Source of the DNA: Blastocatellia bacterium
GTDB lineage: Bacteria; Acidobacteriota; Blastocatellia; HR10
DNA: 64,000 nt
Assembly (NCBI GenBank): GCA_025055075.1
Contig: JANWYV010000005.1
Span: 1-64,000, forward strand
Direction of reading: 5' to 3'
Below the pieces are notes generated by a model. That model had not been told where the DNA came from. It worked only from the letters and a program-made list of their open reading frames with translations, and did no database searches. A program made the translations under genes and the position numbers. This document shows, in pieces, positions 15,621-20,775 of this stretch (its first letter is position 1; every line of letters starts with the position of its first letter).

Positions 15621-16061
15621 CTATTGCGGCGAGGTATCGTCCGATGATGATGCCGGCTCGTCGGCGCCCGGCATTGGCTCCTCGGCCGCCGATTCGGACG
15701 CGAGCAAGGATTCCCCTCGCGTCCGTTTCTCTTCGTACAAGAGATCATCGATGCGCGCCGCGCGCGCGATCGTCTCGTCGTAGTGAAAGACCAGCTCGGG
15801 AATCGTCTTCAGATGGAGGCGGGGATAGAGCTGCCGCCGAATGAACGCAGCGGCTTGATTGAGCCGCTCGACCGTCCGTCGGGATTCCTCGGGCGTCCCC
15901 AGCGTGCTCACGTAGACCTTGGCATGGCGGAGATCACGGCTCACCTTCACATGAGTGATCGTAACCAGACCGAGCTGCGGATCCTTCAGCTCGTAGCTGA
16001 TGATCTGACTCACCTCCTCCTTGAGGAGTTCGCCGATTCGCTCCGGACGATAGCGTTTCAT
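15621..16061 (-). CDS. rbfA: 30S ribosome-binding factor A
   Basis: Late-stage 30S maturation factor (146 aa) that binds near the 5' end of 16S rRNA. The KH-type core shows RIGELLKEEVSQIISYELKDP, the VTITHVKVSRDLRHAKVYVS strand pair and IRRQLYPRLHLKTIPELVFHYD. The C-terminal 25-30 residues are an acidic Ser/Glu-rich tail. It follows infB at 36 nt, the standard nusA-infB-rbfA order. The next gene downstream is the DAHP synthase, which is oriented the same way but lies after rbfA. Confidence 0.95.
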   Translation of the reverse strand: MKRYRPERIGELLKEEVSQIISYELKDPQLGLVTITHVKVSRDLRHAKVYVSTLGTPEESRRTVERLNQAAAFIRRQLYPRLHLKTIPELVFHYDETIARAARIDDLLYEEKRTRGESLLASESAAEEPMPGADEPASSSDDTSPQ

Positions 16062-16097: not shown

Positions 16098-18656
16098 TCA
16101 AAGCGTGGGCGCGACCTTCTCGATCACATACGCTTCGATCACGTCCCCCTCTTTGATATCGTTGAACCGTTCCAGCGCGACGCCGCACTCGAAGCCCTCT
16201 TTCACCTCGATCACATCCTCCTTGAAGCGACGGAGCGAGGCGATCGTTCCCTCGTAGACGACCACGTGGTCGCGAATGACGCGCGCATTGGCATTACGCC
16301 GGAGGACGCCGCTTTGGACGAAGCATCCCGCGACATTGCCGACCTTGGCGATACGAAAGACCTGCCGCACCTCGGCGCGCCCGAGAGTCACCTCCTTCTC
16401 CACCGGAGCGAGCAATCCGAGCATCGCGTTGCGGATGTCCTCCTCGACCTTGTAGATGACCGAGTAGAGGCGAATTTCCACGCCTTCCTGCTCAGCGACA
16501 TCGCGCGCGCGCGGCTCCGGACGGACGTTGAAGCCCACGATCAACGCCGAGCGCTGCATATCGCGGGAGGCCGCCGCAAGCAAGACGTCCGACTCGGTGA
16601 TCGCGCCGACGCCTGCGCGGATGACATTGATCTTGACCTTCTCACTGGAGAGCTTCTCCAGCGTCTGCCGCAACGCCTCGAGCGATCCCTGCACGTCGGC
16701 CTTCAGGATGATCTGCAATTCCTTGACCTCGCCCGCTTGCAACCGCTGATAGAGCTGCTCAAGCGGCGTCACGGCGGCTGCGCGCGCTCGAGCCTGTCGC
16801 AGCTCCAACTGTCGCGCCGAGGCGATGCGCTCAGCCGCCGCTTGGTCTTCGACGACCATCAACTTATCGCCCGCCTGCGGGACGGCCTCTAATCCCAGGA
16901 CCTCCACCGGGCGCGAGGGCCCCGCTTCCTGAACCATGCGCCCACGATCATCCACCAGCGCGCGCACGCGCCCGTAGGTCGCCCCTACGACGAACCAATC
17001 CCCCACGCGCAACGTCCCTTGTTGCACGAGGACCGTCGCCACGGGACCGCGTCCGCGATCGAGCTTCGCTTCCAAGACCGTGCCCATCGCTTTGCGATGC
17101 GGATTCGCCTTCAGCTCCAACAGATCAGCGGTGAGGATGATCATCTCCAGAAGGGCGTCCAGGTTCATCCGGCGCTTCGCCGAGACCTCGACCATGACCG
17201 TATCGCCGCCCCAACCATCCCACAGCAGTCCGTGCTCGGCGAGCGCTTTCTTCACTCGCTCGGGATTGGCCTCGGGCTTATCAATCTTGTTGATGGCGAC
17301 GATGATGGGCACTCGCGCGGCTCGGGCGTGCTCGATGGCCTCGATCGTCTGCGGCATGACCCCATCGTCGGCGGCGACGACCAAAACGACGATGTCCGTC
17401 ACCTGCGCGCCACGCGCGCGCATCATGGTGAACGCTTCGTGCCCAGGAGTATCGAGGAAGACGATCTCCCGCTGCTGCGTGGGATCATCCGGATCGGGCA
17501 CCGAGACGACATACGCGCCAATATGCTGGGTGATGCCGCCGGCCTCTTGTTCGGCCACGCGCGTTTGTCGGATGGCGTCCAGCAACGTCGTCTTCCCATG
17601 ATCCACGTGTCCCATGACCGTGACGACCGGCGCTCGCGGAAGCAGGGCTTCTTCCTCGCCCGACTGAAGGAGACGCTCCAGCTCCTGCTCCTCGATCAGC
17701 TCCTCGAAGGAGGTGAAGGTGACCTCGTAGCCGAATTCTCTACCCAGCTCTCGGGCGACGTCGTGATCCAACGTTTGATTGATCGTCGCGAAGATGCGCC
17801 GCGCCACGAGCTTCTGGATCACGTCGCGAGGCGCGACCTGCAATTTCTCAGCGAACTCGCGTACGGTCACCGTTTCCGGCAGCCGGATCGGCTTCAGCTC
17901 CTTCACCGGCGGGGGCGCCGGAGCAGCGGTCGGGACCGGAGTCTCTGCGCCAGGCGCCGGCTTCTTCGAAGGCGCGGGCATCGGACGACGAATGCGCCGT
18001 CGGCGTTCGTCCCGCGGAGGGACGTAGACGGTGCTCGCCAAATCGGGAGCAGGCGCAGTCACTGAGGAACTCAGCGCGCTTGAGGGTCGCAGGATGATGA
18101 CCTGCGGCTTGGAGGGACGCGGTTTCGGCTCCGGGGCCACCTCTGGAGCTGACGTCGGACGCGTCTCTTCGACAGGAGCGACCGCTGGCGCCGCGGCCGC
18201 CGATTCCGCAGTCGCTTGAGGAACAGTCGGCGGAGGTGGAGGAGCCACCGGCTTCAACGGCATCACCTTCATACGCGGCTCGATCTCGATCTTCGGTCTC
18301 TCCGGGCGCTCGGAGACCTCGCGCACCTCTTTGCCGACAGTCACCCGCTCGACATCTGGCTTCACCGGCTCGCGTTCTCTCTGCGGGGGTTTCTCAGGCA
18401 CCTCTTTCGGCGTCGGACTCGGCACTGCGGCCTGCTCCGGCACCACCTCTTTAGCCCGCTTGACCAACCGCGGTCGAATCTGCGAGATCTCCGGGGCTTT
18501 GGCGTAATGCCGCGAGCGGATTTGCTCGGCCTGCTCCTCGGTCAAGGAATTCGAGGGCACACTCACATCGAAGCCGAGCTGCCGCGCTTCCTCGATCACG
18601 CGGCGCGGCTCCAACTTCAACTCTCGGGCCAGCTCATAAATGCGTATCTTTTTCAT
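16098..18656 (-). CDS. infB: translation initiation factor IF-2
   Basis: GTPase that places initiator fMet-tRNA on the 30S subunit and promotes subunit joining. The 852-aa protein starts with an IF2-N helical domain ([20 protein letters not shown]), followed by a long Pro/Ala/Glu linker (about 60-250), a second IF2-N-like segment, the G domain ([11 protein letters not shown] near residue 350, [17 protein letters not shown]), and domains II-IV ending with [22 protein letters not shown]. It follows nusA by 53 nt. No ylxR or L7Ae-like genes lie between them, unlike in Firmicutes. Confidence 0.97.
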
Positions 18657-18709: not shown

Positions 18710-20035
18710 TCACGATCGCTCCTCCGATGGGGATGCGCTCGACGCCGGCTCAAGAGGCCGCTCCTCCATGACCGCCTGCACGGCCGCCTTCACCTCCGTC
18801 GCTTGAGCGAGACTCCAATCCAATTTCTCCGCGAGATGATCCACATCGGTGCTGGCGATCTGCTGAAGCGTCGTGAATCCCTTGGCTTTGAGCTGCTCCA
18901 ACACCACCTCGGGAAGACGGCCTTCCAAGGCGCTGAGCGGCGTTCCCCCTGCGGACACCAATTGCTCCATCTGTGCGGCTACTTCTCGCTTCAGCTCCGA
19001 CTCGCTCCGAATGTCAATGTGCCAACCCACGAGCTTCACGGCCAGACGCACGTTCTGGCCCTGCTTGCCGATCGCGAGCGAGAGCTGATCGTCATCCACG
19101 ATCACTTCCAAGCGACGCGCCACCGGATCCACGATCTGCACGCGATTCACCCGAGCCGGACTCAGCGCGCTGGCCGCGAACTTCGCCGGATTCTCCGACC
19201 ACTCGATGATGTCGATCTTCTCCCCATGCAGCTCGCGAATGACAGCCTGGACGCGACTCCCTTTCATCCCCACGCAGGCGCCGACGGGATCCACATCCGG
19301 ATCGTTCGAGGCCACAGCGATCTTCGCCCGTTCGCCCGGATCTCGGGCGCACGCTTTGATTTGAACCGTCCCATCATAGATCTCCGGGACTTCCAGTTCG
19401 AAGAGCCGCATGATCAGCTCTGGAGCCGTGCGCGAGAGGATGACCTGATGCCCCGCTCCCCGATGAACCTCTTTGATCACCGCGCGGATGCGATCGCCGA
19501 CCGAATACCGCTCCGCCTTCGACTGCTCGGAGCGCGGCAAGAGGGCTTCCACAGTCCCCAAGTCCACGATCATATCCCCCTTCTTCTCGAACCGCTTCAC
19601 GAAACCACTGACCAACTCGCCGACGCGCTTGACGTATTCCTCGTAGATGCGCTGGCGTTCGGCCTCGCGCACCTTCTGCATCATGGTCTGTTTGGCCATC
19701 TGCGCGGCGATGCGCCCCAAGCCTTCAAACGGCCGCGGGATCTCCACCAGGTCACCCACTTCGGCCCCTTCGACCAGTTGATTCGCTTCTTCCAGGCTGA
19801 TCTCTCGCGCAGGATCGGTCACGCGCTCGACGACGACCTTCCGAGCGAAGACCTCGATCTGTCCCGTCTCCGGATTGTACTCGACGTCAATGTCCTCGCC
19901 CGTGGCTTTGAACTGCTTCTCATATGCCCGGCGAATGGCTTCCTTGAGAGCCGTGATGACCGCCTCCGGGTCGAGATTCTTCTCCCGGCTGAGTAGCTCA
20001 ATGCTCTCGGCGATCGGGCTTCTCGGATTCGCCAT
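18710..20035 (-). CDS. nusA: transcription termination/antitermination factor NusA
   Basis: RNA-polymerase-associated factor (441 aa) that promotes pausing and intrinsic termination. Domain order: N-terminal RNAP-binding domain (1-120), S1 (about 135-205), KH1 and KH2 (about 205-340, with GACVGMKGSRVQ and SLAIGKQGQNVRLA), and one C-terminal helix-hairpin-helix/AR2-like unit (about 370-430). A strong GGGGGGGAG ribosome site precedes the ATG. It lies between rimP and infB. The operon leader contains a short hairpin with T8 that NusA itself could act on. Confidence 0.97.
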   Translation of the reverse strand: MANPRSPIAESIELLSREKNLDPEAVITALKEAIRRAYEKQFKATGEDIDVEYNPETGQIEVFARKVVVERVTDPAREISLEEANQLVEGAEVGDLVEIPRPFEGLGRIAAQMAKQTMMQKVREAERQRIYEEYVKRVGELVSGFVKRFEKKGDMIVDLGTVEALLPRSEQSKAERYSVGDRIRAVIKEVHRGAGHQVILSRTAPELIMRLFELEVPEIYDGTVQIKACARDPGERAKIAVASNDPDVDPVGACVGMKGSRVQAVIRELHGEKIDIIEWSENPAKFAASALSPARVNRVQIVDPVARRLEVIVDDDQLSLAIGKQGQNVRLAVKLVGWHIDIRSESELKREVAAQMEQLVSAGGTPLSALEGRLPEVVLEQLKAKGFTTLQQIASTDVDHLAEKLDWSLAQATEVKAAVQAVMEERPLEPASSASPSEERS

Positions 20036-20137: not shown

Positions 20138-20614
20138 TCACCTTGCTCGGGATTTCCCCCACTCGAACGCCAGATGCGCTTTGCGAATCTTCGGGTAAGG
20201 GATCACCACCTCGCGTTTCAGCTCGCGCTCGCGCACGGTCACCTCGTCTCCCTCGATGCCCAGCAACTCGCCCACGAAATGTCGCCGTCCTTCGAGCGGC
20301 TCTGACGTCTCGATCTTCACGAGGCGACCAGCAAATCGCTCGAAATCGCTCCGGCGATATAATCCCCGCTCGATGCCCGGCGAGCAAACTTCCAACACAT
20401 ACCGATGCGGAATCGGATCCTCGACATCCAGCACGACCCCGATGCGCTCGCTCACGCGCGCGCAGTCGTCCACCGTAATCCCGCCGGGCTTATCCACGAG
20501 GACGCGCAGGATCATCCCCCGTCGCCCCCCGGCGATCTCCACGTGCACCAGCTCGAAGCCCAGGGCGGCGATGACCGGCTCGATGATCTCCGTCACGCGC
20601 TCGACAAGACCCAC
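20138..20614 (-). CDS. rimP: ribosome maturation factor RimP
   Basis: 30S assembly factor of about 158 aa. The N-domain has IIEPVIAALGFELVHVEI and the D-rich SERIGVVLDVEDPIPHRYVLEVCSP signature, followed by GIERGLYRRSDFERFAG. The C-terminal SH3-like barrel ends at EWGKSRAR. The GTG at 20614 is chosen because GGGGAG sits 6 nt upstream and the expected homology begins there (VGLVERVTEII); the frame runs open to 20704 but that part lies in the predicted leader. First gene of the rimP-nusA-infB-rbfA run. Confidence 0.92.
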   Translation of the reverse strand: MGLVERVTEIIEPVIAALGFELVHVEIAGGRRGMILRVLVDKPGGITVDDCARVSERIGVVLDVEDPIPHRYVLEVCSPGIERGLYRRSDFERFAGRLVKIETSEPLEGRRHFVGELLGIEGDEVTVRERELKREVVIPYPKIRKAHLAFEWGKSRAR

Positions 20615-20626
20615 GCTTTTCTCCCC

Positions 20627-20651
20627 AAAAAAAAGTGGGCTGACCGCCCAC
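20627..20651 (-). terminator. leader attenuator of the rimP-nusA-infB operon
   Basis: On the minus strand GTGGGC (20651-20646) and GCCCAC (20640-20635) form a 6-bp stem with a GGTCA loop, followed directly by eight T (20634-20627) and then the rimP ribosome site GGGGAG. It lies about 35 nt after the predicted transcription start. The 3' arm can alternatively pair with the GTGGG of the rimP start codon region (20614-20610), giving two exclusive structures. Confidence 0.65.
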
Positions 20652-20688
20652 ATCCGCATCATCCCCACACCCGACTTGTGAAGAGTAA

Positions 20689-20717
20689 ATGATAGCCCGC
20701 TCACCTGCCGAAATCAA
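20689..20717 (-). promoter_or_regulatory. promoter of rimP-nusA-infB
   Basis: TTGATT (20717-20712) and TATCAT (20694-20689) are 17 bp apart on the minus strand. Transcription should start near 20682, giving a leader of about 68 nt that carries the attenuator hairpin before the rimP GTG. Confidence 0.6.
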
Positions 20718-20745: not shown

Positions 20746-20775
20746 TTGACAATCGCAGGATCCGGCCCCTACCAT
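20746..20775 (+). promoter_or_regulatory. promoter of nuoA-nuoB-midA
   Basis: Consensus TTGACA (20746-20751) and TACCAT (20770-20775) with an 18-bp spacer, the best -35 match in the window. Transcription should start near 20782, about 24-33 nt before the nuoA start. It is divergent from the rimP promoter; the two -35 boxes are about 28 bp apart. Confidence 0.7.

Follow-up and report, generated by a model that had tools for sequence, protein, structure and literature searches.

A rimP-leader-type terminator hairpin ahead of rimP-nusA-infB-rbfA in a class of Acidobacteriota

The rimP leader and its operon

The window is the whole stretch of 64,000 nucleotides analysed here, from a Blastocatellia bacterium (contig JANWYV010000005.1, positions 1 to 64,000). 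Among named organisms, its closest relatives are Acidobacteriota MAGs and the unclassified 'Bacterium HR10' and 'HR08'. The minus strand carries the gene order rimP-nusA-infB-rbfA, and nuoA-nuoB lies divergently on the plus strand. The features of the operon and its leader are as follows.

20689..20717, minus strand: sigma70-like promoter TTGATT-17 nt-TATCAT (pattern scan; close relatives have the same -35 hexamer and spacing ahead of their hairpin)
20635..20651, minus strand: rimP-leader terminator hairpin GTGGGC-GGTCA-GCCCAC (sequence and fold; conserved and rimP-specific in the class)
20627..20634, minus strand: U-tract (T8) of the terminator (sequence; T-rich after the stem in relatives)
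20621..20626, minus strand: Shine-Dalgarno-like GGGGAG (sequence; 6 nt from the GTG)
20138..20614, minus strand: rimP, GTG start at 20614 (Pfam RimP_N, 96.4 bits; NCBIfam RimP models)
18710..20035, minus strand: nusA (TIGR01953, 428 bits)
16098..18656, minus strand: infB, IF-2 (TIGR00487, 819 bits)
15621..16061, minus strand: rbfA (TIGR00082, 106 bits)

Read on the minus strand, the leader runs from the promoter-like pair through the GTGGGC-GGTCA-GCCCAC hairpin, T8 and GGGGAG to the GTG of rimP. The promoter predicts a transcription start at about 20682, and the U-tract ends only about 56 nt from this start. The hairpin is made up of GTGGGC (20651-20646), the loop GGTCA (20645-20641) and GCCCAC (20640-20635). 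Its 6-bp stem contains five G-C pairs and one T-A pair, and its fold energy is -12.1 kcal/mol (z = -2.0 against shuffles). When the 75-nt leader was shuffled with its dinucleotides preserved, 0 of 5000 shuffles gave a G+C-rich 6-bp hairpin that is followed by seven or more T in eight bases. Sequence, fold and shuffles thus bear out the preliminary description of this DNA, which had placed a 6-bp GC hairpin with eight T between the promoter and the ribosome site of rimP. In the wider region, plain terminator-like patterns are common (5 found, 4 expected), so the significance of the rimP hairpin rests mainly on its conservation. Another promoter-like pair, TTGACA-18-TACCAT at 20746-20775 of the window (plus strand), points toward nuoA-nuoB, with about 30 bases between it and the rimP promoter.

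Conservation and specificity of the hairpin

Of 58 genomes, 56 yielded a RimP, including the window's own, and the leaders of these 56 were compared. A GTGGG...CCCA[CT] stem lies within 320 nt upstream of rimP in 48 of them, and stem and U-tract occur together in 45. The eight leaders that lack the stem belong to seven members of genus g16 (family f6) and to G055, which has a different hairpin upstream of rimP. In three f6 members of different genera (G012, G016 and G048), the stem is retained in the longer form GGTGGGC/GCCCACC, with the U-run replaced by CTTGATTT or CTTCACTG. These U-tract-less hairpins are loci L151, L152 and L153; the related genus g16 is without the hairpin too. The attenuator is therefore dispensable in family f6, where the U-tract has been lost and, in one genus, the hairpin as well.

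Among 40 distinct hairpins, a set that takes in G016 with its interrupted U-tract, the loop is 3 to 9 nt long. With one exception, C-G, T-G or T-A stands at the sixth position of the stem, and immediately outside the core the pair is mostly A-T or G-C. Both positions vary yet mostly stay paired; that pairs 2-5 do not vary is in part a consequence of the search pattern. The flanks are asymmetric, with a mean of 6.8 T in the eight bases after the stem against 2.6 A in the eight bases before it. Measured from predicted promoters, which are implausible in several genomes, the first base of the stem is at about +32 in this leader. In families f1, f2, f3 and f5 it usually falls between +26 and +35, and in family f8 and part of f4 it usually falls between +9 and +13. 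In leaders of this length, an antiterminator ahead of the stem would have little space. These leaders showed no larger conserved aptamer or antiterminator, and no antiterminator-like partner downstream of the stem is conserved among the 48.

The motif is also specific for rimP. The pattern GTGGGN{3,10}CCCACTTTT (GTGGG-N3..10-CCCAC-TTTT) has 34 matches in the 58 whole genomes, 30 of which lie on the rimP (sense) strand no more than 250 nt upstream of rimP; two of the other four are the reverse strand of rimP sites and two lie elsewhere. Thus, there is essentially one copy per genome, ahead of rimP. The stricter pattern GTGGGCN{3,8}GCCCACTTTT occurs a single time in the window's own genome, and a regulon of motif copies in that genome was rejected on this ground. 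The earlier proposal of an attenuator in the rimP-nusA-infB leader is therefore well supported, since stem and T-run are conserved class-wide, are rimP-specific and match the published rimP-leader.

Outside this set, a GGG...CCC hairpin with a T-run was found within 300 nt upstream of rimP in 46 of 75 other named loci, a few of which may be chance (that of L087 resembles part of a tRNA). The 46 come from Nitrospirae, Delta-, Alpha- and Gammaproteobacteria, Dadabacteria, Firmicutes and other Acidobacteriota, nearly all of them other classes or phyla. E. coli K-12 carries TGGGCTTTAGGCCC-T7 upstream of rimP. Ahead of the rimP of a Proteobacteria MAG, there is a sub-threshold match to a group I intron (L134 958-1220; 34.8 bits, E 2.6e-5).

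Start-region pairing and the probable role of NusA

It had further been proposed that the 3' arm of the hairpin pairs alternatively with the start region of rimP, linking transcriptional with translational control. The complementarity does exist: GCCCAC is complementary to the GTGGGT of the rimP start (20614-20609), and this pairing appears in the minimum free energy structure of one length, the 96-nt fold. Since the rimP start lies downstream of the U-run, the pairing cannot affect termination; it could operate in read-through RNA alone, where it would hide the start codon. The full 6-bp match is restricted to this genome and its close relative G001, and the nearest other relatives have runs of 3-4. 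Moreover, pairing of the 3' arm with the downstream region makes up a minority of the ensemble: its probability is 0.19-0.24 when 30 nt of coding sequence are included and 0.03-0.06 when 60 nt are. The longest complementary run averaged 3.40 over the 48 leaders against 3.66 in shuffles and was not enriched. The start-blocking fold was rejected on these grounds, the proposed link between transcription and translation is not supported, and an attenuator coupled to such a translational switch is highly improbable. G-rich Shine-Dalgarno regions make chance GTGGG-type matches at start codons likely.

In E. coli K-12, an in-frame GTGGGC that follows a G-rich stretch precedes the annotated TTG start of rimP by two codons (L154 1990-2020, minus strand) and resembles the GTGGGT start of the window. 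Start-region pairing may therefore exist as an independent lineage-specific case, although the G-rich regions just mentioned make matches of this sort likely.

We consider it highly likely that the element is a NusA-responsive rimP-leader attenuator of the rimP-nusA-infB-rbfA operon; termination in vivo and the part of NusA are inferred. RNA polymerase would start near 20682 and would have made the GTGGGC/GCCCAC hairpin and U8 after about 56 nt. NusA bound to the polymerase would then stimulate termination at the hairpin-U8. When NusA is high, most transcripts would end as a short leader RNA, about 50-56 nt long; when it is low, more read-through into rimP-nusA-infB would follow, which constitutes a negative feedback. 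By this stop signal NusA very probably limits its own production, as judged by analogy with other bacteria. Naville and Gautheret (2010, PMC2965389) describe NusA as the best effector candidate for the rimP-leader and cite NusA feedback on this operon in E. coli, and a review describes autoregulation of nusA in B. subtilis by NusA-stimulated termination in its 5' leader (PMC12288461). The analogy drawn in the preliminary description is thus well supported; the action of NusA at this leader is suggested by homology.

A leaky terminator without regulation, which only fixes the fraction of read-through into the operon, would suit a leader of this length in which no antiterminator or ligand-binding structure is visible. 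It is unlikely, however, as the stem is conserved in sequence beyond the needs of termination and essentially only ahead of rimP, and as the review reports NusA feedback on the same operon in B. subtilis (PMC12288461). The same conservation suggests a factor that reads the sequence of the GGGC/GCCC stem, and RimP or IF-2 might take this role in place of NusA; RimP was indeed raised as an alternative (PMC2965389). Because the feedback reported for E. coli and B. subtilis is that of NusA, an effector other than NusA is very unlikely. The arms also form a perfect, strongly conserved inverted repeat, as would a palindromic operator for a repressor acting on DNA. Nevertheless, with loops of 3-9 the distance between the arms differs by several bases, the outer pairs change, and on the sense strand the T-run is confined to the 3' side. 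Such an asymmetric element of variable spacing agrees with a terminator and disagrees with an operator of fixed spacing, so the operator is hardly credible.

Because three f6 genera keep the hairpin without the U-run, we tentatively suggest, as a possibility that we doubt, that the conserved GTGGGC/GCCCAC is a specific recognition or pause element for a factor encoded in the operon, functional apart from the U-tract. Stem sequence conservation and survival without the U-tract in these genera are the sole parts that go beyond plain intrinsic termination, and the natural U-tract-less variants would be useful for testing why a terminator stem is conserved in sequence.

Comparison with known rimP leaders

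The rimP-leader has been described as the most ubiquitous transcription attenuator (PMC2965389). Its general form, according to that description, has a GGGc...gCCC terminator stem and a U-run, is without a visible antiterminator and lies 4-130 nt from the gene. The element in the window shares the position in the 5' UTR of the rimP-nusA-infB operon, the GGGc...gCCC stem (here GTGGGC...GCCCAC), a T8 directly after it (20634-20627), the lack of a visible antiterminator and a distance to the gene within the published range. It differs in belonging to an Acidobacteriota class, in a stem lengthened by an almost constant GT/AC and, in most relatives, in an onset about 10-35 nt past the predicted transcription start.

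Rfam family RF01770 is likewise a leader ahead of rimP. Its model of 102 positions covers the longer gammaproteobacterial form, which has a second terminator upstream and, according to PMC2965389, includes the same downstream motif. The model has no match in the window, and none over the gathering cut-off (47 bits) in the 58 genomes. Since the element has each sequence feature of the PMC2965389 motif and no RF01770 match, it is, on its sequence, a further example of the known rimP-leader kind and not of RF01770. The sRNA family RF02420 (Burkholderia Bp1_162), the only Rfam match at this site, gave weak, sub-threshold antisense matches to the rimP leader (window 20628-20701, plus strand; L111 1389-1460, minus strand), which suggests that this family may be the complement of a Burkholderiales rimP-leader terminator.

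The nusA operon of B. subtilis shares a terminator in its 5' leader, and NusA dependence, shown there according to the review (PMC12288461), is inferred here. In S. agalactiae, the gbs0413-gbs0418 leader is also very short and has an intrinsic terminator ahead of rimP; there, transcripts of the rimP operon were seen to terminate 31 nt past its start (PMC4448216), whereas the short transcript of the present leader is a prediction from the DNA. The known rimP-leader attenuator, which belongs to a core operon of transcription and translation, is thus extended through a class of Acidobacteriota.
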